Shown here piece by piece: positions 13,370 to 27,351 of a stretch of DNA of 46,986 nt (its first letter is position 1; each line of letters opens with the position of its first letter). Source of the DNA: Thermodesulfobacteriota bacterium (lineage in GTDB: Bacteria; Desulfobacterota_D; UBA1144; Nemesobacterales; CSP1-2). The stretch lies in NCBI GenBank assembly GCA_036397855.1, contig DASWID010000079.1, positions 1-46,986 of the forward strand. Reading direction: 5' to 3'. The notes beneath the pieces were generated by a model that saw nothing but the letters and a program-made list of their open reading frames with translations, made no database searches and had not been told where the DNA came from. The translations under genes were made by a program, and so were the position numbers.

Positions 13370-14026
13370 TCACTCTATCCTTTCCACTATCGCTTCCATT
13401 CCTTCTGTTCTTTGAAAGGAAATTGCGTATTCTCTTGCCTCTCCCTGTGTGTTGAATTTACCAATCCTCACTAAGTACCAATTTTCACCAAGCGAATTGA
13501 CATATGGTACAATATACGGTTTGTAACCCGCTAAATTTAATTCGTTTAGTGCTTTGTTAGCCCTCTCTATCTTTTTGAATGCGCCGACCTGAACTGTAAA
13601 GCCTCCTGTCTTCTCAATATCAATCTCTTGCTCGCCATCGTCAAATTCTTGAGAGTTGTTTTCATTGACTTCGCCTTCGTCTGCGTCGCCTGGCCCTACC
13701 TGCTGCGAATACGTATCGGCAACTGATTGTCCCACATGGGAGGATAACCGCTCTTGAATAGAGACTTTTTCCTCTTCTATCAAATTCCGCTCCCCTCCTC
13801 CTGGACCACCAATCCTATCCCCCAACACGGTGGACTGCTCCCGTTGAGCTTCTTTTTTAACACCAACACTTAAATCCATATCCCTGACCTTAATTCCGAC
13901 ATACACACCGACGCAAAAAGTAAGTAGAATTATCACTAATTGCCGGGCCGATCGAGTCCATGACCGCCGTTTACGATCCGTAAATATCAATCTTGGTTTT
14001 ATTTCTTTCATACCCCTCTCACGCAT
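13370..14026 (-). CDS. SPOR-domain membrane protein
   Basis: A 218-residue bitopic inner-membrane protein: a short basic cytoplasmic tail, one membrane helix at about residues 26-46, a long polar acidic linker (about 50-140) and a C-terminal SPOR domain beginning GGFTVQVGAFKKIERA and ending at the terminus. SPOR domains bind denuded septal peptidoglycan, so a role in cell division or envelope remodelling is likely. This matches the FtsN/DedD-like layout, but orthology is not certain. An alternative ATG five codons downstream is preceded by GAGAGGGG at close spacing; either start keeps the topology. Confidence 0.82.
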   Translation of the reverse strand: MRERGMKEIKPRLIFTDRKRRSWTRSARQLVIILLTFCVGVYVGIKVRDMDLSVGVKKEAQREQSTVLGDRIGGPGGGERNLIEEEKVSIQERLSSHVGQSVADTYSQQVGPGDADEGEVNENNSQEFDDGEQEIDIEKTGGFTVQVGAFKKIERANKALNELNLAGYKPYIVPYVNSLGENWYLVRIGKFNTQGEAREYAISFQRTEGMEAIVERIE

Positions 14027-14035
14027 CCACTTTCA

Positions 14036-14120
14036 TGCCGAAGGGGGGATTTGAACCCCCACGGGCTCACACCCACTGGATCCTGAATCCAGCGCGTCTA
14101 CCAAATTCCGCCACTTCGGC
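14036..14120 (-). tRNA. tRNA-Leu (anticodon CAG)
   Basis: The reverse strand folds into a class II tRNA. The acceptor stem is GCCGAAG with CTTCGGC, and the anticodon stem is CTGGA/TCCAG around TTCAGGA, giving anticodon CAG. The long variable arm (TGGGTGTGAGCCCG region) and T-arm GGGGGTTCAAATCCCCC are present. The discriminator is A and the CCA end is not encoded. It reads CUG leucine codons. It lies between hflC and the SPOR gene on the same strand. Confidence 0.95.
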
Positions 14121-14160
14121 TTAGGATAAATAATACAATAACTAGTTGTCAATGCTAAAG

Positions 14161-15036
14161 CTATTTCAGGTTATCGGGGGAAAATCCGGTGTTAAAGTAT
14201 TTAAAAAAGTCTGAATTGGAGGGGATAACAAAAAGTGTATCTGGTGTTACGGCATTTTCATATGCCTCCAAGGTTCTTTGAAAACTATAAAATTCCGGAT
14301 CCTTATCGAACGCCTCTGAATAGATCGCCGCAGCCTTGGCATCGCCTTCTCCGCTCAACTTCTGTGACTTGGCATATGCCTCTGCGAGTATGATTTCTCG
14401 TTCCTTATCGGCCTGAGCCCGTATCTTGGCAGCTTCCTCCTCTCCCTCAGAACGATATCTCTTAGAAATTCTATCCCTCTCTGCCACCATTCTCGCAAAA
14501 ACACTCTCCTGTACTTCCTTTGGGAGATCGGCTCTCTTGATCCTGACATCAATCAGTTCTATTCCAAAATCCTTTAATCTCTCTCGAGCCTTATCAGCAA
14601 CTGCATCCATAATAGCTTCTCGATTTTCCGCTATAATATCCTCATAGTCGAACGATGCCAATTCTACCCTCATTTCTGAAAATACTATATCTTCAATTCT
14701 CGACTTAGCTCCGAATTCAGTTATTAGACTTTTGAAAAACGCTAATGGATCCTCAATCTTCCAATGGCTTATGTAATCAACGATCAATCTCTTTTTATCA
14801 AGCGTAAGGTATTCTCCCGGTGGTGCATCAGTGTAAAGTACCCTCTTATTAAACCTATGAATTTGCTGAACAAAGGGGGTTCTGGCATGCAAACCCGCAT
14901 CCTTCACAGTTGCTACGTATCGACCAAACTGTGTAATTATGACCTGGTCTGTTTCGTATACTATGTACAGCCACTGAGGCAATACAATTAATAATAAAAT
15001 TAGGATTATAATTATTGCAATTGGCCGAGATTTCAT
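14161..15036 (-). CDS. hflC: HflC, membrane protease modulator
   Basis: A 291-residue SPFH/Band 7 protein with a single N-terminal membrane helix (about residues 5-25), followed by QVIITQFGRYVATVKDAGLH, DYISHWKIEDPLAFF, and a C-terminal alanine-rich coiled coil (EEEAAKIRAQADKEREIILA region). With HflK it forms a large periplasmic cage that surrounds and modulates the FtsH protease. It lies 61 bases downstream of hflK on the same strand, the standard hflK-hflC order. hflX and ftsH are not in the window. Confidence 0.94.
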   Translation of the reverse strand: MKSRPIAIIIILILLLIVLPQWLYIVYETDQVIITQFGRYVATVKDAGLHARTPFVQQIHRFNKRVLYTDAPPGEYLTLDKKRLIVDYISHWKIEDPLAFFKSLITEFGAKSRIEDIVFSEMRVELASFDYEDIIAENREAIMDAVADKARERLKDFGIELIDVRIKRADLPKEVQESVFARMVAERDRISKRYRSEGEEEAAKIRAQADKEREIILAEAYAKSQKLSGEGDAKAAAIYSEAFDKDPEFYSFQRTLEAYENAVTPDTLFVIPSNSDFFKYFNTGFSPDNLK

Positions 15037-15097
15037 ATTTACCTCAGATGGTCTCCTTTTTAATCGAAATTAATTGAAATTCCAACATATATCTTCC

Positions 15098-16108
15098 TTA
15101 TTTTTCATTCTGTTTTTTACCCATTTCTCCTAACGGAAGGAATTTGAGAATATTGTCACTCGCCTCAGGACCTATCACAACCTTATTTGCGTTCGGCAAA
15201 ACTTGCTCCATTGTCTCAATATAAAGCCTTGTAGCTGTAACTCCCTTTGCTTTTTGATATTCCTCTAGGATCTCCAGGAACCTCTCTGTATCACCCTGTG
15301 CTTTTATTACCCTTTGCTCCCTGTAAGCTTCTGCAGCCCTTATCCTCTTCTCAGCCTCTCCTCGCGCCTTTGGTATTATGTCCTCTGCATATCCCCTTGC
15401 TTCGTTCGTAAGCCTCTCCTGATCTTCCCTGGCCCTTACAACTTCATTAAATGAATCCTTGACCTGTGCAGGTGGATCTACTACCTGTAATTTAAAATCA
15501 GTGATTAAGAGGCCAGCTTGATATGTATCTAGCAGTTGTTGTAGAAATTTCCTCGAATCCTCCTGGATCTTAACCTTGCCAACTGTGAGGGCATCATCAA
15601 TTGTTGTTCTACCTATAACACTCCTTAATGCCACTTCGGCAGAATCCAATAATACCTTGTCTGGATCCTTTACCTTGAAGAGATAATTCGAAGGGTTTTT
15701 GACCTTGTATTGAACAATAGCTTGTGCGTCGACAATATTTTCATCCCCTGTGAGCATTAAAGATTCCTCAGGAATGGGTCTATATCTGGGATTTGTCCTA
15801 AAACCGATCTCAACCCTTCTTACGACAGCCATATTTACCAACTTCACAGTTTCAATTGGTGCGGGTAAATGATATCTCAGACCAGGCTCTGACCGACCTA
15901 CTTCTTTCCCAAAACGTAAAACTACACCAATTTCCCCGGGTTCTACTGTATAAATACCTGCAGCAATCCATATGGCTAATATTATTATTATAATAATTGG
16001 CCATAGCCTAAATCCCCTACTTCCCCCATTCCCGGTCTTTCTCAACCAGTACTCACGGATCTCATTCCAGATGGTTTTATCTTCACCAAAACCGTTTCCT
16101 CTAACCAC
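15098..16108 (-). CDS. hflK: HflK, membrane protease modulator
   Basis: A 336-residue SPFH protein, partner of HflC. One membrane helix at about residues 36-54 is followed by YTVEPGEIGVVLRFGK, the Band 7 core with DAQAIVQYKVKNPSNYLF, and a C-terminal coiled coil with ARGEAEKRIRAAEAYREQRV. The N-terminal cytoplasmic tail is shorter and less glycine-rich than in E. coli. Translation starts at GTG with a GGAGG seven bases upstream. It heads a hflK-hflC unit, about 200 bases after the RavA-like gene. Confidence 0.94.
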   Translation of the reverse strand: MVRGNGFGEDKTIWNEIREYWLRKTGNGGSRGFRLWPIIIIIILAIWIAAGIYTVEPGEIGVVLRFGKEVGRSEPGLRYHLPAPIETVKLVNMAVVRRVEIGFRTNPRYRPIPEESLMLTGDENIVDAQAIVQYKVKNPSNYLFKVKDPDKVLLDSAEVALRSVIGRTTIDDALTVGKVKIQEDSRKFLQQLLDTYQAGLLITDFKLQVVDPPAQVKDSFNEVVRAREDQERLTNEARGYAEDIIPKARGEAEKRIRAAEAYREQRVIKAQGDTERFLEILEEYQKAKGVTATRLYIETMEQVLPNANKVVIGPEASDNILKFLPLGEMGKKQNEK

Positions 16109-16314
16109 AAATTCCCTCCAACAAAGGTTTACGTTAGTCTAACCTATGTACGAATATCGTCAAATGTCCCTAAGTCATTAGATTTTTTGTTTAATCACAG
16201 ATTCATGCGCAAAATGGCTTTGCCCAGAATAAGCTGAAATGCATTATAAATGCTAAACAGTTTGATAATAATTATAGAAAGGAAACTTTTAAAATAGAAT
16301 AGAATTCCTTCAAA

Positions 16315-17466
16315 TTAAACCATTTCCTCGTTGAACGATATCAACTTATCCAATGTTTCTCTTTGAATTTGTTCGATTTCGGTCCTCACCCGAGTAATTT
16401 CATCAGTCGATTTTCCACGCTCTCTACATTCATCAAGCATTAGGTCAAGCTTTGCTAATATGTGCCTTAACTTGGTTTGTGCTTCTATGTTAGCATTTAT
16501 TTCCAACTCTTCATTTTCCCACTCTCTTTTTGAATATGAAAGCAGCTCCTTAGCTTGTATAAGTAATTCCCTTAATGCATCTCTATAACCCTGAAGTAGC
16601 TGATAGATAACAGCTTTAATCTCTCCCACTTCGCCCGGATCGCGCCATAGTACATTTTCTAAAATATTTAAGTCACTCTCTATGACTTCGTCCCGCCCTG
16701 AGAGGTACGCCTTCGATCTAAGCAATGAGATAGACTGTTTGTATCGCCTATCAGATAGAACAATACCCTTTTTCCTGAGCTCACTCCTCAGACGCGAAAC
16801 CAATTTTATGACATGCGGTGGAACCGGAATGTCATTAACATGTGATTGACACTTTTGAATCTCATCCAAAGTTATTGATGTAACACCATCATCAATCTCT
16901 TCTGTATGCAACATTTTTAAGAACCTAAAATCCTCCTTAACATAATCTACTACATACCTGAGCAAAAACCTATCATACAATGCTTCGAGCTCATCTTCTT
17001 CAGAGGGAAGCTCATTACTCGCTCCGAAGAGTGAAATCAGTGGCACTTGAACCACATCAGTACTATTATAAAAGATTCTCTCATTCATTATGGTGAGAAG
17101 TGTATTTAATATTGATGAGCTGGCTTTGAACACCTCATCAAGAAAAGCTATGTGAGCCTCTGGTATTTTCCCATTAATAACCCTGCGATATTCATCGTTC
17201 TCAAGTCCCTTAAGGCTAACTGCTCCGAAAATTTCCTCGGGAGTAGTAAACTTTGTGAGGAGCCATTGAAAATAACGGGCTCCGTCTATTCTCTTACATA
17301 CCTCATGAACAAGCTGAGACTTTGCAGTGCCTGGCGGACCAATAATTAGCATATGATTGCCGGTGAGAAGTGCACATAAAGCGCCTTCTATAACCTCGTC
17401 TCTTTCAAATAACCTACTTCTCAACTCCTCGATTATCTTTCTTAATATTACTACCTTTCTTTCCAT
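16315..17466 (-). CDS. RavA-like MoxR-family AAA+ ATPase
   Basis: A 383-residue MoxR AAA+ ATPase that most resembles RavA: LFERDEVIEGAL, Walker A GPPGTAKS at 43-50, the TKFTTPEEIFGAVS segment near 71-84, Walker B HIAFLDE at 105-111, sensor-1 ASNELP, and the arginine-containing ALYDRFLLR. A helical C-terminal region follows. RavA and relatives work with a von Willebrand A protein (ViaA) as chaperones for metalloenzymes or membrane complexes, but no VWA gene is adjacent. Its start overlaps the gspK stop by 16 bases, so it is translationally coupled to the type II secretion operon, an unusual partner. Confidence 0.85.
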   Translation of the reverse strand: MERKVVILRKIIEELRSRLFERDEVIEGALCALLTGNHMLIIGPPGTAKSQLVHEVCKRIDGARYFQWLLTKFTTPEEIFGAVSLKGLENDEYRRVINGKIPEAHIAFLDEVFKASSSILNTLLTIMNERIFYNSTDVVQVPLISLFGASNELPSEEDELEALYDRFLLRYVVDYVKEDFRFLKMLHTEEIDDGVTSITLDEIQKCQSHVNDIPVPPHVIKLVSRLRSELRKKGIVLSDRRYKQSISLLRSKAYLSGRDEVIESDLNILENVLWRDPGEVGEIKAVIYQLLQGYRDALRELLIQAKELLSYSKREWENEELEINANIEAQTKLRHILAKLDLMLDECRERGKSTDEITRVRTEIEQIQRETLDKLISFNEEMV

Positions 17467-18563
17467 GAGATTATACGTACTCCTCTCGACTGCCCAGAAG
17501 AACCTTTTCTTATAACGGCCTCTACCGTCCTTAAAGTTGGATTCTCTTCACCAAGGATACCAGAAGAGATCACAGAAAACACATCGCTCTCCCCGGAACT
17601 TAAAACAACACCACCAATTCCTGAGCTAATCTTGAGTGTTGGGTCAACGTCCTTAATGATTTCGTTCACCTTCTTTCGATCAATGATGGAGTTATCTTTT
17701 CTAGCCTCCATAACCCCTTCGGCGATTCTATCCGCAATATCATCCTTCAAATCTTCAGGTGAGGAGCTCTCTTGTCCTTCTATTGCCGAAACTGCCGCAC
17801 CCTTAAGAGATGAAATCATGACGGGTTTTGAGGCCGTACTGAAGTTTACCTTTTTATCGGCGGGATACACGGTAACATAATTCTTAATCTTTTCGAAGAA
17901 CTCTTCATCCATACCACGTATCATGCGTATTTCGTCAACACTATCAAGTGGGCCATTTTTTATATTATATGGATTTTCAAGGCCGAGATAATAGTCAGCC
18001 CCGGCACCCGATGAATCTTGGTCATTCTGTCCCCCCTTTATGGGGTGATCAAGCCAATTTATTAAGCTCGCTATAAATAAGTCAGATTTTCTAGGGTCTA
18101 CATCTAGAATTCTAAAGAGCTGCGCCGCCTCAGTTTTTACCTGCTGGTCAACCCTATTTGACGATTGATTGACAAGTGCATTCAAATTGATCTTTGAACG
18201 CTCGTCAATAACCGTGAGTGAAACATTTCCATCACCAACCGGAAGGACCGGTACTCTGATAGACCATATTTCATCGGATTCTTCACCCTGATTGTTCAAT
18301 AGACTAGTAGCTTTCTTTAAGTCTTCGAGCGGAGTTTCCTTCATCGCCCCCGCAACAACATTTACGCCCGACTTTGCAATGTATCTAGCCTTGATATCAT
18401 CTCTGGTGTTTGCGGAGATCTCGGAATCTATCTGTGTAAAATAGATAAGATCAACGACAAGGGTCGTAAGAATTGCCGTGACGATGAGTACGATAATAAG
18501 AACCACCCCGCTATCAGACTTGTTTCCCTTAAGATTTTGTCTCATACGAAAATTACTTTTCAT
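17451..18563 (-). CDS. gspK: type II secretion minor pseudopilin GspK
   Basis: A 370-residue minor pseudopilin. The N-terminus has the prepilin leader and DSGVVLIIVLIVTAILTTLV, which lacks Glu at +5, as is typical for GspK. The large globular domain includes SKINLNALVN and the INWLD motif around residue 165. GspK caps the pseudopilus tip with GspI and GspJ. The gene follows gspJ by 36 bases and overlaps the RavA-like start. GspL and GspM, which normally come next, are absent. Confidence 0.93.
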   Translation of the reverse strand: MKSNFRMRQNLKGNKSDSGVVLIIVLIVTAILTTLVVDLIYFTQIDSEISANTRDDIKARYIAKSGVNVVAGAMKETPLEDLKKATSLLNNQGEESDEIWSIRVPVLPVGDGNVSLTVIDERSKINLNALVNQSSNRVDQQVKTEAAQLFRILDVDPRKSDLFIASLINWLDHPIKGGQNDQDSSGAGADYYLGLENPYNIKNGPLDSVDEIRMIRGMDEEFFEKIKNYVTVYPADKKVNFSTASKPVMISSLKGAAVSAIEGQESSSPEDLKDDIADRIAEGVMEARKDNSIIDRKKVNEIIKDVDPTLKISSGIGGVVLSSGESDVFSVISSGILGEENPTLRTVEAVIRKGSSGQSRGVRIISWKER

Positions 18564-18599
18564 CCATAATCACCGAAATATAGGAGAGCACACCGAATG

Positions 18600-19274
18600 C
18601 TACTCACCTAAAGGTATCAAAATCAGTGTGCTAAATTGAACATCTTCCCCTCTAGGACTCCTCATAGTCAATGTAATTTCGACAACCTTGGGAAGTGAGC
18701 CCGTTTGATCCGAGTTAAACTCATCAACAAAACTCTCCTCGCTATCATTCTCGGTCATGTATGTTAAATTAAATCTGACCAAGTTTTCAGAAATCGGATA
18801 TCTTATGCCCCCCGAGTCGGTACCTATCCGAGGGTTTTCTTCTCTCATAAGGTAGAAAAGATCGGACTGTGGAACAGGTTCCAAGTAATAACTGATCTCA
18901 GCTTGATCCGAATCCACGGAATTTAATGCAGGTTGGCGAGAAAGTGAGGTAAGGGTGACCCTGCTGTTATCTCCATCCTTTGTACCACTAAAAAATGAAG
19001 CGGTTGGGATTGATGAATTATCGAATACCTCACCCCTTGGGTATGCCGATTGAAAGTCTTCTGTCATTTTGGAAAAAACAACCCTAGCTTCGTGATAGAG
19101 ATCGAGTTCACTTTCCGCAACGTCCTTGGCCTTTATTATCTGGAAAAAAGATGAATACAGAACTGTTAAGACAATTGAACCAATAAAAATAGCCAGGAGC
19201 ACCTCAATCAGGGTAAACCCCTTTTCAGTAATCAGATAATGCCATTGAAACTTCAAAATCTTTTTTACCATCAT
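18600..19274 (-). CDS. gspJ: type II secretion minor pseudopilin GspJ
   Basis: A 224-residue minor pseudopilin with a prepilin peptidase site [12 protein letters not shown] (Glu at +5) after a leader of about 19 residues. The C-terminal part matches the GspJ beta domain, including the ISYYLEP strand. It sits in the pseudopilus tip complex. Its start overlaps gspI by 50 bases, implying translational coupling; a start closer to the cleavage site cannot be ruled out but lacks an ATG. Confidence 0.9.
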
Positions 19275-19689
19275 CCCATGTAATCCGTAATATTACAATT
19301 CTTATCTCTGTATCCAGGTTTGGAATCTCATAAGGCGTTACAGAGAGAAACCAGTTAAATTCTGGCGCCTCTTCAAATTGTCCCTGCTCCTGCCTTATCT
19401 CAGGATAGCCTTCGAGCTCAACCTCAGCCAACTTCCGTTGGGCAAGCAAACCTGCTATGGAGAGGTTTTTTGACTGTGAAGCCATAATTAAATTTCTGTT
19501 GACAGCACCCAGTAATACTGTAAGTCCGGCTCCTAGAATCGCTACAGCAACAAGTACCTCCAATAGAGTAAATCCATTATTAGATTTTGCATGCTTAATT
19601 CTTGCTGAATCATCGTCCCTAGGGACTCTACATTTCAGCAAATAATTTAAAAATGACCTATTTATTGAGTACATCCACATATTCATCAA
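19225..19689 (-). CDS. gspI: type II secretion minor pseudopilin GspI
   Basis: A 154-residue minor pseudopilin with [20 protein letters not shown] (cleavage after Gly, Glu at +5) and the GspI-specific [12 protein letters not shown] segment. From the first ATG the leader would be about 38 residues, long for a prepilin, so a downstream start such as the TTG at 19641 is possible. It overlaps gspH by 32 bases and gspJ by 50 bases. Confidence 0.9.
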
Positions 19690-20167
19690 ATACTATAGTG
19701 CCACCGGTATAGGGCTTTGTTGCCAACGTGTAGTATTTCCCGTCATCAGACTCGAGATGAATCACAGCGGGTTCTACAAATCCAGTTGGCAAGAATAGTA
19801 TGAATTGTTCATTCTGCCCAAGTGAATTAACTCGGCTTCGATCAGTCATCACATCTTTGAAGGATAAACCCTCCGGTAGTTTTCTCTTCTTCAATGTGGG
19901 GTCATCAGGAATTACAAATTCATTTCCCTCCTGAACCTCGACCCAGTACTCCTCATTGTCTAAATCGAACGATAGCTTATAGATCTTTTTTTTAAAAGCA
20001 GCCTCGTTGTAAAGATACTTGATAATACTGGCCATTCTTCGCGAGGTGCTTTTAATATTGACATCATTTAGATCCTTAAACTTTGGAATTGCTACCAGTA
20101 GAAAGAAGCCCAATAGAATCATGACTGCGGTAAGTTCTATGAGGGTAAAACCTTGCTTATCCTTCAT
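19658..20167 (-). CDS. gspH: type II secretion pseudopilin GspH
   Basis: A 169-residue minor pseudopilin with a short leader MKDKQG and the peptide [18 protein letters not shown]. The C-terminal half is beta-rich and fits GspH, the protein that joins the GspI-J-K tip to the GspG filament. Its ATG overlaps the gspG stop by four bases, a typical coupled start. Confidence 0.88.
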
Positions 20168-20592
20168 TGTATGTTACGGTTAGATATATCTTCATCGCTT
20201 GGATATACACCATCCGGGCCTGGTGATATTATCTCAAATGAACTATCGTGCGTTTGATCTGGTCCTACGTAGATAAAGTCGTTTCCCCACTGATCTAGGG
20301 GAACCTTACCACCCTCAAGATAACCATCAGAGGAATAACGTTGAGGAATTCTTCCTGTAGTCGGTGGGACTACCAAGGCTTCTAGACCCTGCTGAGTTTC
20401 GGGATAGAATCCATTATCAATCTTAAACAATTTCAATGCCGATTCCACTTGCTTGATCTGTATCTTAGTTTGCTCCTTCCTAGCTTCGTCCAATCGCCCC
20501 ATAACGTTCGTACCGACTATATAAGCTAGCCCTGCAATTATGATCAAAACGACCATAATCTCAATGAGCGTAAATCCACCCTGTAATCTCAT
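20164..20592 (-). CDS. gspG: type II secretion major pseudopilin GspG
   Basis: A 142-residue major pseudopilin. The leader MRLQGG is cut before FTLIEIMVVLIIIAGLAYIV, and the C-terminal half has the GspG signature FKIDNGFYPETQQGLEALV and the calcium-site-like region near DGVYPSDEDI. It forms the pseudopilus piston. The gene lies 10 bases after gspF. The calcium-binding loop is inferred from the family. Confidence 0.95.
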   Translation of the reverse strand: MRLQGGFTLIEIMVVLIIIAGLAYIVGTNVMGRLDEARKEQTKIQIKQVESALKLFKIDNGFYPETQQGLEALVVPPTTGRIPQRYSSDGYLEGGKVPLDQWGNDFIYVGPDQTHDSSFEIISPGPDGVYPSDEDISNRNIQ

Positions 20593-20602
20593 GTATTACC
20601 TC

Positions 20603-21811
20603 CTATTTTCCAATCGTAGATGTTAAATCGAATATCGGCAGAAGTATAGCAAAAACTATAAATCCTATTATAACACCTATTATCAATATCATAACAGGTT
20701 CAAGTAATGATGTAAGCGTTGAAACGTAGGTCTCAACCTGCATATCATACATATCTGCAATCTTAACCAGCATTTCTTCCATCTCTCCTGTTTGTTCCCC
20801 TACCGCAATCATCCTAGTCACGAGTGGAGGGAAGACTCCACTCTCTCTGAGCGGAGTCGCAAGGCTCGTACCCTCCCTAACATTCTCCCGGACGTTTCTC
20901 AAGGCTTGAACATAGACTGAGTTTCCGACCACCGCTTCTCCGATCTCTAGTGCTTCGAGGAGTGGAATACCACTCCCTATGAGTGTTCCAAGAGTACGAG
21001 TGAACCTGGAAATTGCAACCAACTTTGCTATTTTGCCAAAGATAGGAACCTTAAATATTAAACGGTCATAAAATTGCTTACCCCTATCCGTTTTTTTAAA
21101 GCGAAAAATAAAGAAAACTATAGCCCCCAAGACAACTAAAAGAGCAATCAGATTATTCGAAATGAAGTTGCTAAAACTTATTAAGGCAAGTGTGATTAGT
21201 GGTAGTGATTTACTGCTCTCTTCAAAAATTTTTGCAATCCTGGGAATCACGTACGACATCATAAAGAAAAGCACGCCACTGCCAATTAAGAACATGAAAA
21301 TAGGGTATACCATGGCACTTCTCACGCGGGCACGGAGTGCTGATTGCTTCTCAAGAAAATCCGCAAGCCTCAGGAGAACAATGTCCAACGTCCCACTAGA
21401 TTCCCCCGCTTTTACAATATTTATGTAAAGGTCCGAAAAAACCCTCGTGTGCTCATTCAGAGCATTCGCCAATGAGCTACCCTCGCTAATCCTATCTTTG
21501 ACTTCGGTAAGTACCTGACTGAGCTTTGGATCTTCAGTTTGCTCACCAAGCGCTTGCAGAGAGGCTTCAAGTGGAAGCCCGGCCGAAATTAGTGTAGAAA
21601 ACTGTCTCGTTGTAACCGCTAGCTCCGAGGAGCTTATCCCCCTTAACCGAAAAATTCCCCTACCCTTATCCTTCTTCACTTCCTTAAGCGATGAAAGAAA
21701 AACCCCTTCCCGTTTTAACTTATCTGTCGCTGATTTTGGGGAATCTGCATCAACTATTCCCTGCAGAGACTTTCCCCTCTCATTAATTGCTTTGTATTTA
21801 TATACAGGCAT
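20603..21811 (-). CDS. gspF: type II secretion inner-membrane protein GspF
   Basis: A 402-residue polytopic platform protein. It starts MPVYKYKAINERGKSLQGIV, has two GspF/PilC domains (about residues 70-190 and 270-390) and three membrane segments near residues 170-190, 220-240 and 375-395. It sits under the pseudopilus in contact with the GspE ATPase. It lies 71 bases after gspE and 10 bases before gspG. Confidence 0.95.
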   Translation of the reverse strand: MPVYKYKAINERGKSLQGIVDADSPKSATDKLKREGVFLSSLKEVKKDKGRGIFRLRGISSSELAVTTRQFSTLISAGLPLEASLQALGEQTEDPKLSQVLTEVKDRISEGSSLANALNEHTRVFSDLYINIVKAGESSGTLDIVLLRLADFLEKQSALRARVRSAMVYPIFMFLIGSGVLFFMMSYVIPRIAKIFEESSKSLPLITLALISFSNFISNNLIALLVVLGAIVFFIFRFKKTDRGKQFYDRLIFKVPIFGKIAKLVAISRFTRTLGTLIGSGIPLLEALEIGEAVVGNSVYVQALRNVRENVREGTSLATPLRESGVFPPLVTRMIAVGEQTGEMEEMLVKIADMYDMQVETYVSTLTSLLEPVMILIIGVIIGFIVFAILLPIFDLTSTIGK

Positions 21812-21882
21812 ATTATTATAATTGAGATATCTTTACAGATAAGATCAGAAATTACTTCAACTATATATACTATGATTTCGTA

Positions 21883-23565
21883 TCAATGATTATCGCTTTC
21901 TTCTGCAACACGCATAACTTCATCTATCGAAGTTTGTCCTTTAAGAACCTTTTCCGCGCCATCCATCCTCAGTGTTGTCATACCATGCTCAACGGCTTTC
22001 CTCTTAATGGTGGTAGAATCCACCGTGCTTAGGGTAAGATTCCTGAGGTCGTCATCAATAACAAGAATTTCAAATATTCCACTCCTGCCAGCATATCCAG
22101 TACCCAGACACTCGCTGCATCCCCTCGCCCTATATAGACCTGATTCAGGTACCTCACTCCTATCGATTCCAATCCTGATGAGTTCGTCACCTATCGGTGT
22201 ATAGGGCTCCCTGCATTTACGACATAGTATTCGTACAAGCCTTTGGGCTACCACTGCAATGAGAGATGATGCTACTAGGAATGGCTCAATACCCATATCG
22301 ATCAACCTGGTAATTGCACTGGCAGAGTCATTAGTGTGTAGAGTAGAAAAAACCAGGTGCCCCGTTAGCGAAGCGTGTATGGCTATGTCCGCAGTATCTC
22401 TATCCCGTATCTCTCCCACCAATACTATGTCCGGGTCCTGACGGAGAATGGACCTCAGTCCATTGGCAAAGGTCAAATTTACTTTAGGATTGACCTGTAT
22501 CTGGTTTATTCCCAATATTTGATACTCAACTGGATCCTCAATAGTGATTATTTTTTTATCAGGAGAATTTATTCTCTCAAGAGCAGCATAGAGGGTAGTC
22601 GTTTTCCCTCCACCAGTTGGGCCTGTCACAAGAATTATTCCATGGGGGCGATGAATAAGTGAATTAATAGTCTCAAGCTTTTTACCAAATAGACCAAGAT
22701 CCTCTAAACTGAGAAGAACCGATGATCGATCGAGTAGCCTCATCACAATGCTCTCACCGTGAGAAGTAGGTACGGTAGAGATCCTGACATCCACATCTCG
22801 TCCAGCAACTTTAACGCGAATCCTGCCATCCTGAGGCTTCCTCTTCTCAGCAATATCGAGCTCTGCCATAATCTTTACCCTGGATATAACGGAAGATTGA
22901 AGCTTTTTGGCAACCCTTGTAACCTTATGGAGCATCCCATCCTTTCTGAACCGTACGACCACCTCTTTTTCAAAGCACTCTATATGAATATCGCTCGCCT
23001 TCTCCTTTACTGCCTGAAATAGTAGTGAGTTTACAAATCTAATTATTGGCGCTTCATCATCTGCTTCGAGTAGATCCTTCGGTTCTTGTAGTTCGGATTC
23101 CGGAATCCCCATCGACTCGTGGTGTACCATGTCACCTGTCATTTCCTTATCGCGTTCATAGACCTTGTTTATGTTATCCATAACTACATGGCTCAATGCA
23201 AGATGAGGTTCGATTTCACAACCGAATAGAGACTTCACCTCATCTAGAACGTATAAATCCAAAGGTGGTGCAACAACCACAACAACCCTTTCACCTTCTT
23301 TTCTTAGTGGAATAAGCTTATATCTTTTCGCGAAGCTTATAGGCAAGAGCTTTACAAGCTCAGGGTCGATATCTCGTTCGGACATTTTCATGATATGTGG
23401 TATTTCATAGAACTCGGAGAAGACCTCCAGCATGTCTTCATCTTTTAGAAGATTCGATTTTAGCACCGCGTCCTCAAACCGTTCTCCATTATTCGATGTC
23501 AGCTCTTCTATCCTAACGCTTGCCTCTGGGTTTTTCTCTACGATAATCTCTTCAAGACTCCTCAC
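21883..23565 (-). CDS. gspE: type II secretion ATPase GspE
   Basis: A hexameric secretion ATPase, 560 residues from the chosen GTG. An N1E/N2E region is followed by Walker A GPTGGGKTTT (the usual Ser is Gly), the Asp box, Walker B DIVLVGEIRD, a His box and a tetracysteine zinc site (CRKC and CSEC). It powers pseudopilus assembly. The reading frame extends back to an ATG inside gspD, but those 32 residues have no relation to the family. An AGGAGG at the end of gspD is 12 bases before this GTG and 3 bases before an ATT, so initiation is unusual either way. Confidence 0.9.
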   Translation of the reverse strand: MRSLEEIIVEKNPEASVRIEELTSNNGERFEDAVLKSNLLKDEDMLEVFSEFYEIPHIMKMSERDIDPELVKLLPISFAKRYKLIPLRKEGERVVVVVAPPLDLYVLDEVKSLFGCEIEPHLALSHVVMDNINKVYERDKEMTGDMVHHESMGIPESELQEPKDLLEADDEAPIIRFVNSLLFQAVKEKASDIHIECFEKEVVVRFRKDGMLHKVTRVAKKLQSSVISRVKIMAELDIAEKRKPQDGRIRVKVAGRDVDVRISTVPTSHGESIVMRLLDRSSVLLSLEDLGLFGKKLETINSLIHRPHGIILVTGPTGGGKTTTLYAALERINSPDKKIITIEDPVEYQILGINQIQVNPKVNLTFANGLRSILRQDPDIVLVGEIRDRDTADIAIHASLTGHLVFSTLHTNDSASAITRLIDMGIEPFLVASSLIAVVAQRLVRILCRKCREPYTPIGDELIRIGIDRSEVPESGLYRARGCSECLGTGYAGRSGIFEILVIDDDLRNLTLSTVDSTTIKRKAVEHGMTTLRMDGAEKVLKGQTSIDEVMRVAEESDNH

Positions 23566-23569
23566 TTCT

Positions 23570-26272
23570 TCAATAGACCTCCTGTTTCTCAAATCCCCTT
23601 TGCTGAATAAGCATATTCCTCCTCTGTCTCTGTTCCAGGATCTGCTGCATGTCTTCTTCATTCTCTACGATTCTAGGGGTAAGAAGTATCATAAGATTTA
23701 TCTTGTTTCTCTCATATCTCTTAAACTTAAATAAATTACCAAGTATGGGTATATTACCCAGAAGAGGAACCTTATTTTGAATTGAACTTTCCCTGTCCTG
23801 TACTAATCCTCCGATTACGATTGTCTGACCATTTTTCACAACTACTGATGAATCAGCCGTCCTCGTATTTGTAGCGATACCGAATTCAGCCGTATTAAGG
23901 TCTGCTGGTGTTGGAGCTATAGCCGATACCTCTGTATAAATGTTCAAATTTAGATAATCGCCTTCACTGATTTGAGGAGTAATGGCCAGCCTTATGCCTA
24001 CAGGCTGCCTGTCAATTGTCTGAACAGTGACACCAGCGTCGCCAACTACACTGCCGGTAGGAAATGGAATCACATCGGCAACGACTATTTCTGCCTCTTC
24101 ATTATCTGTTGTAATAATGCTAGGAGTGGATAGAACATTAACGTCAGTCAAAGATGTGAGTGCCTGGAACAGAGCACTAAAGGATGGTATAGGGGGTATA
24201 GGTCCTGAACCATCGGGATCAACCTCTTCGCCTAAAACACCCAAAAAAAGCCCGGACAAGCTGTTGGTTAGATTAAGAGAAGCCGCTGGGTCCGCAGCCA
24301 AACCAAGAAGGCTTGGAACCCCAGGCAGTATTGTCCCGCCAAACCCTAGATCGTTACCGTTATTGAATGTAAAGCCTATACTCAAATTTGTACCTAAGGC
24401 TGTGATATTACTTAGACTCACCTCAAGAATGGCAGCTTCTACATAAACCTGCCTTCGTCTGACATCCAACTCTTCTATAACGCGTCTTAACGCCTCAAAT
24501 TCCTTACGAGTACTTACAATAATTACAGAATTTGTAGCGGTGTCAGCGGTTACTCTCAAACCCTCCTCCCCCACCACACTAACAGTGGAAGTAGCTGCTC
24601 CTGTAGTTTCCCCTCCTCTGATTCGTTGTCCTCCAGCTTGCCCGGCATAAGTTTGTCCGACAGCTCCCCTTCCGGTTACTGTTTGCCCAAAAGCGCCACC
24701 CCCAAATGTACCACCCCCAAATGTACCGGCTCCAGTCCTACGAGCCCCAATGACAGCCTGACCTCCCGTACTCACGCCGCCGCCGCCTATTAGACCAGAT
24801 ATGACTGCAACCACCTGCTCAGCATCCGCGTTTAGAAGGTGAATAACGTAAATTCCCTCTTCAGGTTCCTCCGTTTCAACATCTAGTTTTCTAATTATCG
24901 AATTTATCTTCGGCAGGTCCTCAGGATAGGCGATAACAATTAGGGTGTTTGTCCTATCATCCACGATAACCCTGAACCCCGCCGTATTGGATTGACCTGA
25001 AGGCGGAGTTGCACCAACCCGGCTTTGCACCCTCTCCCGAGCCCTTGATGCGGCGGTCCCTCTTTCCGCTGGAGAGGTCGTCTGAGCAGGGGCCCGAGTG
25101 GTTGAGACGGAGCCAGTACCACCTAGAATCTCCACGAGCTTTGCGGCTACATCGGCCGCATCACTATTAACTATTTTTACAAACTCAATCTCCTTCTTAA
25201 GATCAAGATTTTCAATAATATCGAGTAACCTATTAATATTGGCTCTAGTCTCAACTATAATCAGGGTGTTCAAGTCAGGATATACAGCAATATCGCCATC
25301 TGGAGAAATAAGTGGCTTGAGAATGTTTGCAATATCGCTGGCCTGAATATTTTTCAAAGGCACAAGCCTCGTTATAAAACTCTCAGAAGATTCGCCGGCA
25401 GAAACTCCAACTTCGGTAGGAATGCTTTCAGTTTTAATATCTCTCTTCTGAACTACCTTGTTTATGCCATCCTTCTTAACGATTGAAAACCCGTTTAGAT
25501 CTAAAATTGTTTCAAATAGTTTTAGTGAGTTCTGTTTCTTGAAACCCCCCTGCGGTGTTATGATCGTTACTTGCTTCCCTTTTACCGAATCATCCAGGAT
25601 AAATGTCTCCCCCGTAATCTCGCTCATCGTCTGAATCAAATCTCTTATATCCATTTCCGTTTGCAGGTTTACAATTTCTTCCTCGGGACTAACTGGTGAT
25701 TCTGCAGGTTCTGCTCCTGATACACCTCGCCCCTCTTTCCTCTCAGTAATAGTCTCCCCTCCTCTTCCTTGAGTTTTAGGCTCACCTTCATCGGTCTCAG
25801 ATACTAGGTCTTCGCTAACCGCTTCTTTACGTTGGGACCCGTCCACACCTTCTTCACCCTCGCGCACGACCTCTACCTTCGGGCTTTTGACCCTTAGTGG
25901 GATGATCAAGAACTGGCCGGGAATTACGTTAGCATTCTCTACCAAACCGTTTATATCTAAAATTTCCTGGACCGATAACTGAAATCTTTTAGCTATCCCC
26001 TCTAAGGTGTCCCCTTCTCTAACCAGGTACCTTATCTTCCTTGCAGTTGATTCAGCTTTATGAACCTCTTTTCCCTCCGGGCCTTGTTCCCGTGATTCGG
26101 GAGAGGGGTCAGTCTGAGCTAGCGATGCCTTTTCTCGCTTCTCATTCCCTCTTAGACCTGAAGAAATTACGTTGCCCATATCACTATTTACCACCAACTC
26201 CTCCAAATGAGCCACGTAGACGCCAGAGATGGTGGTAATGAAAAATAAGACCAATTGGAGAAATTTAATCAT
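23570..26272 (-). CDS. gspD: type II secretion secretin GspD with N-terminal LysM domain
   Basis: A 900-residue outer-membrane secretin, well above the usual 650-700. After a signal peptide (about residues 1-21, no lipobox) there is a LysM peptidoglycan-binding domain at about 80-127 (IRYLVREGDTLEGIAKRF, then NVIPGQFLIIP). A low-complexity acidic linker follows, then N0 (198-275), N1 (300-358), N2 (362-465, with a Thr/Ala insertion) and N3 (473-605, carrying a Gly/Thr-rich insertion near 495-555), and the secretin core at 610-870 (VYVEAAILEVS and VGIRLAITPQ). The LysM fusion may replace a separate anchoring or pilotin function. Its stop overlaps the gspE ribosome-binding region. Confidence 0.94.
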   Translation of the reverse strand: MIKFLQLVLFFITTISGVYVAHLEELVVNSDMGNVISSGLRGNEKREKASLAQTDPSPESREQGPEGKEVHKAESTARKIRYLVREGDTLEGIAKRFQLSVQEILDINGLVENANVIPGQFLIIPLRVKSPKVEVVREGEEGVDGSQRKEAVSEDLVSETDEGEPKTQGRGGETITERKEGRGVSGAEPAESPVSPEEEIVNLQTEMDIRDLIQTMSEITGETFILDDSVKGKQVTIITPQGGFKKQNSLKLFETILDLNGFSIVKKDGINKVVQKRDIKTESIPTEVGVSAGESSESFITRLVPLKNIQASDIANILKPLISPDGDIAVYPDLNTLIIVETRANINRLLDIIENLDLKKEIEFVKIVNSDAADVAAKLVEILGGTGSVSTTRAPAQTTSPAERGTAASRARERVQSRVGATPPSGQSNTAGFRVIVDDRTNTLIVIAYPEDLPKINSIIRKLDVETEEPEEGIYVIHLLNADAEQVVAVISGLIGGGGVSTGGQAVIGARRTGAGTFGGGTFGGGAFGQTVTGRGAVGQTYAGQAGGQRIRGGETTGAATSTVSVVGEEGLRVTADTATNSVIIVSTRKEFEALRRVIEELDVRRRQVYVEAAILEVSLSNITALGTNLSIGFTFNNGNDLGFGGTILPGVPSLLGLAADPAASLNLTNSLSGLFLGVLGEEVDPDGSGPIPPIPSFSALFQALTSLTDVNVLSTPSIITTDNEEAEIVVADVIPFPTGSVVGDAGVTVQTIDRQPVGIRLAITPQISEGDYLNLNIYTEVSAIAPTPADLNTAEFGIATNTRTADSSVVVKNGQTIVIGGLVQDRESSIQNKVPLLGNIPILGNLFKFKRYERNKINLMILLTPRIVENEEDMQQILEQRQRRNMLIQQRGFEKQEVY

Positions 26273-26403
26273 GGAATGCCCTCTCTAATTATTCAAAACT
26301 GTTCTGACCGCCGACTTCTAAATCCTGAATCATTCGTTCACCTTAGCAAAAAACACATCTGTTGGATATAGATTTCATCTACTGATTAAATGATCAAAAT
26401 TTC

Positions 26404-27351
26404 TCATTTTACTGTATATTCATATGTAAGTCTTTTCCCACGCCTTGTTAAATCAATACTAAATTTGCTCTGCCCCTTTAGGTCCTCAAACAAGCTGAAT
26501 GCATTTTCAACGTTGTCCAGCCCCACGTCATTTATGCTATGAACTGTATCGCCGTTCCTGATCCCTATCTTGGAAAAAATACTATTCGGTCTTATGGCAA
26601 AAAACCGCAGCCCATCGTCATGTGGAACGACCCGAGCCTTAGTCAAGATATCATTTGGATTGCTTAAAAGCTCGTCCATCATCTTTCTGTCAATCTCATA
26701 AACTCCCTCGTCGATCTGGTTTATCCCATCAGCGTTTTCACCGAGACCTTTACCATAGCCTTTGGTTGTTCGAGCTTCCTTGGATCCGCTATTAAGCGTG
26801 GTCCTCGAAGCTACTTGACTAGAAGACGAGCCGTCACTTATATCCTTTTTACATTTTATAGTTTCAGGCCCTTCGCCGATGCGCTCCAATACTGCAACGC
26901 AATTTTCAATCCGAATTACCTTCACCTTTTCCGATTGTATTATATCGATCAATTCATCCAACTTATAACCATTTACCCTGCCCGAATCAACATTTTTAAT
27001 CACAGCAACCGAACTTTTACTCGGGTTGATAACTGTGCCTAGAAGCTCAAGGTTTAGCGTGGTTTGTGGAACGTTCTCAATGCCTGATGAATTAGCCGAT
27101 GATGTATTCTTAAGACCAAATATGTTACGCTTGAGTATTATGTCGTAAGATTTTCGTGAAGCCAGGTCTTTATTTGGACTCACATAATTTTCTACCCTCA
27201 CGCTCTTAGATGAAGCCACAGCCTCATGAGGGAGGGCAGGCATTTTCCCCTTTATATTGTCGATTACAATCTGTGCAAGAATATAAGCAAGCACTGCAAC
27301 AAGGAACAGATTTATAGCCCAGGTATGTTTCTTAAATAGTGATATAATCAT
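26404..27351 (-). CDS. gspC: type II secretion protein GspC
   Basis: A 315-residue inner-membrane protein linking the platform to the secretin. It has a short cytoplasmic start, one membrane helix at about residues 13-31, a homology region (LELLGTVINPSKSSVAVI near 98-115, contacting the N0 domain of GspD), and a C-terminal PDZ domain at about 220-315 (FAIRPNSIFSKIGIRNGDTV). First gene of the gsp operon; 131 bases before gspD and 53 bases after the galT-like gene. Confidence 0.93.
   Translation of the reverse strand: MIISLFKKHTWAINLFLVAVLAYILAQIVIDNIKGKMPALPHEAVASSKSVRVENYVSPNKDLASRKSYDIILKRNIFGLKNTSSANSSGIENVPQTTLNLELLGTVINPSKSSVAVIKNVDSGRVNGYKLDELIDIIQSEKVKVIRIENCVAVLERIGEGPETIKCKKDISDGSSSSQVASRTTLNSGSKEARTTKGYGKGLGENADGINQIDEGVYEIDRKMMDELLSNPNDILTKARVVPHDDGLRFFAIRPNSIFSKIGIRNGDTVHSINDVGLDNVENAFSLFEDLKGQSKFSIDLTRRGKRLTYEYTVK

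Follow-up and report, generated by a model that had tools for sequence, protein, structure and literature searches.

A LysM domain fused ahead of N0 in the type II secretion secretin of Dadabacteria, a putative cell wall anchor

In this study, we analyzed a window of 46,986 nucleotides (contig DASWID010000079.1, the whole stretch of DNA referred to below as the window) and found that its type II secretion system (T2SS) secretin, GspD, carries a LysM domain at the N-terminus. The domain has a predicted LysM fold, forms a conserved island between fast-changing linkers, is shared by three of the order's families, and belongs to a secretin encoded within a gspC-to-gspK cluster. The protein is probably the outer-membrane secretin of a Dadabacteria T2SS that is ordinary in other respects, in which a peptidoglycan-binding LysM was fused ahead of N0 as a wall anchor. 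That the secretin bears a LysM of its own is well established, and from this we naturally infer that it would bind peptidoglycan.

The secretin and its LysM domain

The gspD gene starts with an ATG at position 26272 of the minus strand (ORF listing). Its 900-residue product matched the NCBIfam GspD equivalog TIGR02517 with 508.9 bits against a cut-off of 351.35. Pfam found the domains in the order N0, Secretin_N and Secretin, with three Secretin_N stretches. The gene and the parts of its product are as follows.

23570 to 26272, minus strand: gspD, T2SS secretin with N-terminal LysM, 900 residues (ORF listing, Pfam, NCBIfam)
26189 to 26272, minus strand: N-terminal hydrophobic helix, residues 1-28, Cys-free, presumed export signal (AlphaFold helix 2-28; sequence)
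25898 to 26029, minus strand: LysM domain, residues 82-125 (PF01476, E 3.2e-12; AlphaFold beta-alpha-alpha-beta; Foldseek LysM matches)
25676 to 25891, minus strand: acidic linker, residues 128-199, low-confidence, probably disordered (composition; AlphaFold)
25454 to 25657, minus strand: N0 domain, residues 206-273 (PF21305)
25199 to 25372, minus strand: best Secretin_N stretch (N1), residues 301-358 (PF03958)
24989 to 25120, minus strand: Ser/Thr/Arg-rich insertion, about residues 385-428 (alignment; composition; sequence)
24575 to 24790, minus strand: Gly/Thr-rich insertion, residues 495-566 (alignment; composition; sequence)
23663 to 24163, minus strand: C-terminal secretin domain, residues 704-870 (PF00263, E 3.7e-45)
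23573 to 23662, minus strand: conserved charged C-terminal tail, residues 871-900 (alignment of 24 GspDs)

The first-pass annotation had proposed a LysM domain at residues 80-127 of the 900-residue protein. The profile search bore this out, with PF01476 matching over its full length (1-43 of 43) at residues 82-125 and scoring 46.6 bits against a cut-off of 20.9. The acidic linker and the N0 domain, said to follow the LysM, were also found: the 72 residues of the linker hold 20 D/E against 10 K/R, and N0 lies at residues 206-273. Structure prediction agreed with the domain assignment. Using shallow alignments of 16 rows, AlphaFold folded a 64-residue LysM segment, aligned with 15 relatives, into the beta-alpha-alpha-beta arrangement of a LysM with a mean pLDDT of 79 (strands at 7-12 and 50-55, helices at 19-25 and 30-37). 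The first-ranked PDB entry in Foldseek was 4uz2, which shows an NlpC/P60 endopeptidase of T. thermophilus in its LysM domains (E 5e-4), and several LysM entries, among them the E. faecalis autolysin AtlA, were found among the other high matches. An AlphaFold model of 370 residues showed an N-terminal helix, an ordered LysM, an ordered N0 and then N1, and the linkers flanking the LysM (residues 24-76 and 129-197) had a pLDDT below 50; the mean pLDDT of this model was only 56, so the relative placement of its domains carries no meaning. The full profile, the predicted fold and the presence of the domain in 16 proteins ruled out a chance match or a frame artefact.

The claim that the protein has no lipobox held, since no Cys was found in the whole 900-residue GspD. 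The lipobox cysteine of lipidated self-piloting secretins of the HxcQ/XpsD type is accordingly absent from its N-terminus. Neither a SPOR match, as in LspD, nor an AMIN match, as in PilQ, was found in GspD (Pfam, E <= 1). Residues 1-26 form a strongly conserved hydrophobic stretch in the GspDs of family f7 (L031, L032, L034-L041), where a signal-peptidase site was not obvious by eye, unlike in the f6 and f3 GspDs. Judging by this sequence, the hydrophobic N-terminus of the f7 GspDs might remain as a membrane anchor.

The Gly/Thr-rich insertion in N3 described by the first-pass annotation is present, and Q, S, T, N, P or G make up 40 of the 67 residues from 494 to 560. It was rejected as part of the LysM story, because a Gly-rich stretch of variable length lies at the same place in all 24 alignment rows, with or without LysM, indicating a lineage-wide loop. 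The solved GspD 5wln, which we take to be P. aeruginosa XcpQ, has a short Gly-rich stretch at the matching place. The C-terminal tail at residues 871-900 presumably lies where other GspDs have the S-domain.

The T2SS gene cluster and its partner proteins

Pfam and NCBIfam showed that GspD is encoded alongside gspC, gspE, gspF, gspG and gspK. The remaining genes of the cluster are listed here.

26404 to 27351, minus strand: gspC (NCBIfam NF041515, GspC_delta)
21883 to 23661, minus strand: gspE (ORF listing, NCBIfam)
20603 to 21811, minus strand: gspF (NCBIfam)
20164 to 20592, minus strand: gspG, major pseudopilin (Pfam, NCBIfam)
19658 to 20167, minus strand: minor pseudopilin at the gspH position (Pfam, NCBIfam; under the GspH cut-off)
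19225 to 19689, minus strand: minor pseudopilin at the gspI position (N_methyl match only)
18600 to 19274, minus strand: minor pseudopilin at the gspJ position (T2SSJ, under cut-off)
17451 to 18563, minus strand: gspK (T2SSK_1st, E 2.6e-19, over cut-off; NF037980, 128.7 bits against a cut-off of 130)

The gspE ORF as listed overlaps gspD by 92 nt, and its real start probably lies further in than the listed one. The C-to-K arrangement was found in T2SS clusters of the order (window positions 17451-27351; L166, L067, L070), and neither gspL nor gspM was seen within these clusters.

The surroundings of the cluster were also read. Genes for a MoxR ATPase, a pair of Band_7 proteins and a protein with a SPOR domain lie 3' of gspK on the same strand (13370-17466), and a sigma-70 factor gene comes after them. 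In family f7, a Peptidase_S13 (D-Ala-D-Ala carboxypeptidase) gene lies upstream of gspC-gspD in all 8 loci with enough upstream DNA, its identity resting on Pfam for two of the eight. The gene was located about 300 bases upstream of gspC at L168:8373-9815, L169:9088-10530 and L062:3071-4504. In family f1, this upstream place is taken by galT, not dacB (4/4 loci examined).

We searched 43 genomes of the order for partner proteins. The pilotin profile PF16549 gave no match over cut-off in any of them, LysM-bearing or LysM-less, with the E. coli control positive; one match below cut-off was found in G032 (E 0.0026). The T2SSB profile matched 0/43 genomes, and its controls likewise 0. The T2SSL profile PF05134 matched 26 genomes (20 over cut-off) and none of the 13 of genus g12. 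Almost all of the matching ORFs are about 350 residues long, the exceptions having 498 in G012 and 303 in G009. In the genome that holds the window (G000), the matching ORF is PilM, beside PilN, PilO, PilP and PilQ, and the T2SSL matches elsewhere in the order look like PilM. This pilMNOPQ set is located at L162:5414-10198 on contig C195. Its PilQ has 634 residues and an AMIN domain over cut-off (E 2.5e-5). Since PilQ has AMIN and GspD has LysM, the two secretins found in one genome carry two different presumed peptidoglycan-binding modules.

Short ORFs of 144-180 residues whose only domain is a GspD-like N0, preceded by a hydrophobic N-terminus, were found in 13 of the 16 f7 genomes and in G006 of family f1, which gave no GspD match at 1e-30. 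ORFs of this kind lie at L086:4541-4969, L087:4935-5387, L088:4200-4619, L089:4670-5107, L090:5114-5551 and L091:1451-1882. A 4HBT-type thioesterase gene adjoins this ORF in all five f7 regions fetched (by Pfam for one), and no match to the ORF was found in the genome of the window. The ORF is perhaps a detached secretin N0, which might bind GspC.

The missing PF16549 bears on the possibility that the LysM stands in for an absent pilotin or GspA/B, helping the secretin reach the wall and cross it. This explanation is consistent with the pilotin result over the whole set of 43 genomes, and the available text on Legionella (PMC6617341) reports a matching combination, there with SPOR as the predicted module. 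However, the pilotin half of the proposal, made by the first-pass annotation, was not supported, because LysM-less relatives are without PF16549 as well, and the C-terminal tail is kept in LysM-bearing and LysM-less GspDs alike, except in G007 (alignment, 24 rows). Replacement of GspA/B is plausible by analogy with Legionella LspD. We consider the stand-in explanation as a whole unlikely, and prefer that of a wall anchor.

Distribution and conservation of the LysM

In our data set, the class and the phylum comprise the same 57 genomes. A GspD match at E <= 1e-40 was found in 36 of them, and in none of the 14 small-genome f8 members nor in seven others. Scanning further genomes with the GspD alignment yielded 30 loci, 20 of them from Candidatus Dadabacteria; the rest include Deltaproteobacteria, Thermodesulfobacteriota and one distant match in Parvularculaceae. 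Our assignment of the window to Dadabacteria is based on this relatedness. We aligned and Pfam-scanned 24 of 34 GspD loci. Of the other ten, four (L009-L012) were fragments; the remaining six (L047, L049-L053) were relatives from genus g12, within family f6, in which no LysM was seen by eye.

The LysM was found in 16 of the 24 scanned GspDs, or 16 of 21 when only proteins with a complete N-terminus are counted. By the alignment, five belong to family f1, ten to f7 and one to f3. The further GspDs of the order with LysM ruled out an oddity of a single genome. Of the remaining eight, three are truncated by the edge of their contig, whereas five have a complete N-terminus that lacks LysM (G013, G007, G018, G024, G015). 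The T2SS of this lineage can therefore dispense with the domain. By sequence, the f3 protein (L045, from G008) has a tandem pair of LysMs. A 17th genome, G005 (f1), has a LysM-like stretch in a separate neighboring frame upstream. Its gspD is split at L011:1-1924, with the signal and the LysM-like stretch in one frame and the linker and N0 onward in another, by an assembly error or a genuine break.

Outside the lineage, PF21305 matched in 201 of 398 Pseudomonadota genomes. From the matches listed there, we took the 30 best N0 matches and 42 further ORFs of at least 740 residues, a sample that is not random but biased towards high-scoring N0 matches and long ORFs. N0 was present in 72/72 of these GspDs, and LysM, SPOR or AMIN in the N-terminus of 0/72 (Pfam, E <= 0.1). 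The phyla sampled for LysM-GspDs were thus Dadabacteria and Pseudomonadota. The first-pass annotation had said that its observation would be refuted if the LysM were common among the T2SS secretins of its lineage; within Dadabacteria this is the case, while none of the sampled Pseudomonadota GspDs carries it. From the sequences compared, we regard the LysM-secretin fusion as a lineage trait of Dadabacteria.

To describe conservation, we used 14 of the 16 LysM-GspDs, excluding L008 and L032. Mean pairwise identity reached 0.82 in the secretin core and 0.79 in N0; it was 0.49 for the LysM and dropped to 0.16 for the linker behind it. Five LysM residues are invariant in 16/16 proteins, and the linker between LysM and N0 is 42-160 residues long in these 16. 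When pN/pS was pooled within each of two sets of four closely related proteins, it was 0.28 and 0.18 for the LysM, 0.35 and 0.50 for the linker, and 0.02 and 0.06 for N0; in three single pairs, the LysM ratio was equal to or above that of the linker. The substitution test is weak because a LysM-less control pair (L048/L054) gives a similar ratio, 0.20, in the columns opposite the LysM. The identity island speaks for constraint on the LysM sequence, and the substitution ratios add little.

A GspD tree was built from N0 onwards, with the root fork open and one outgroup very long. The LysM label needs three changes on it, two of them forced by well-supported branches, and the two-LysM GspD clusters with the LysM-less f6 proteins with support of 100/100. 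This sequence-based history is compatible with a single gain followed by two losses. Such a history also speaks for a rival reading, in which the LysM is a nearly neutral relic being lost, retained by descent rather than for its function. The f2 and f6 GspDs without LysM are otherwise intact, the LysM changes faster than N0, and its pN/pS is not clearly apart from that of the LysM-less stretch. But the contrast in identity between the LysM and the following linker, the invariant residues, and the doubled LysM of one relative argue against a relic, which we consider very unlikely.

Proposed anchoring role and comparison with known systems

Glycan binding, a periplasmic position and multivalency would follow by analogy with known LysM and AMIN biology. 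In the anchor reading, a flexible tether would hold the LysM in the periplasm, where it would grip glycan chains. The AMIN of PilQ in the same genome and the carboxypeptidase gene beside the f7 clusters speak for this reading; the five complete GspDs lacking LysM and the f1 loci with galT in place of that gene speak against it, and LysM domains bind chitin as well. Solved T2SS secretins have 15 chains. A secretin ring would thus display about 15 LysM modules, whose weak single contacts may sum to a strong anchor. Such an anchor would fix the secretin to the wall and, with the secretin, the inner-membrane platform held at N0 via GspC. The LysM may also help monomers find a wall site ahead of multimerization. 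Its job would be comparable to that of AMIN in PilQ, of GspA/B elsewhere and, supposedly, of the predicted SPOR of Legionella LspD.

Alternatively, the LysM could chiefly target or time secretin assembly, at septal, denuded or new wall, and bear no load in the finished machine. Linkers of the observed lengths would pass on little force, and the available text of PMC5285504 describes the P. aeruginosa PilQ AMIN and the FimV LysM as needed for localization. However, no localization system was noticed in the window or in the flanks read. We regard targeting as an appreciable possibility, held with some doubt, and keep the wall anchor as the preferred reading.

A broader proposal, which we put forward only tentatively, is that Dadabacteria have a pared-down T2SS with no recognizable GspL or PF16549 pilotin, whose secretin would anchor itself through a ring of LysMs. 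If true, the pore would have taken over wall anchoring from its partner proteins, in an event separate from those that gave LspD its SPOR and PilQ its AMIN. How secretins, as pores of about 15 subunits, cross the wall and stay attached to it is still debated, and related GspDs with zero, one and two LysMs form a natural set for testing what a wall anchor contributes to a T2SS.

Peptidoglycan-binding modules at the N-terminus of secretins are known. In the available portions of the literature on LysM or peptidoglycan-binding domains and GspD or secretins (including PMC8115339 and PMC4004799), we found no description of a T2SS secretin with LysM. The closest system is Legionella LspD. As far as the available text of PMC6617341 and PMC9239104 goes, it is also a T2SS GspD with a peptidoglycan-binding module just before N0, with no lipobox and no pilotin found. 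Its N-terminal SPOR is a prediction, and according to that text it has no GspA/B equivalents (PMC6617341). In 2022, LspD with its SPOR was named in the available text as the only T2SS secretin known to have a specialized peptidoglycan-binding domain (PMC9239104). Unlike in LspD, the module here is a LysM, from another domain family, in place of SPOR; it occurs in another phylum, and it is single, double or absent within the order.

PilQ of the type IVa pilus likewise has N-terminal peptidoglycan-binding modules, AMIN domains, before N0. The available text reports a peptidoglycan pull-down for the P. aeruginosa PilQ AMIN (PMC5285504), and none to three AMINs in a tally of 197 sequences (PMC7545093). 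In contrast, the GspD found here belongs to a T2SS and not a pilus, and carries LysM and not AMIN; its own genome encodes an AMIN-PilQ besides. With TsaP and FimV, according to the available text of PMC9239104 and PMC5285504, a secretin machine also meets the wall via LysM, but there the LysM belongs to a separate partner protein of the type IV pilus secretin. GspA/GspB of Aeromonas, Vibrio and Dickeya are described in the available part of PMC9239104 as tying a T2SS secretin to the wall, as proposed here; they differ in being separate inner-membrane proteins, GspA with a PF01471 domain.
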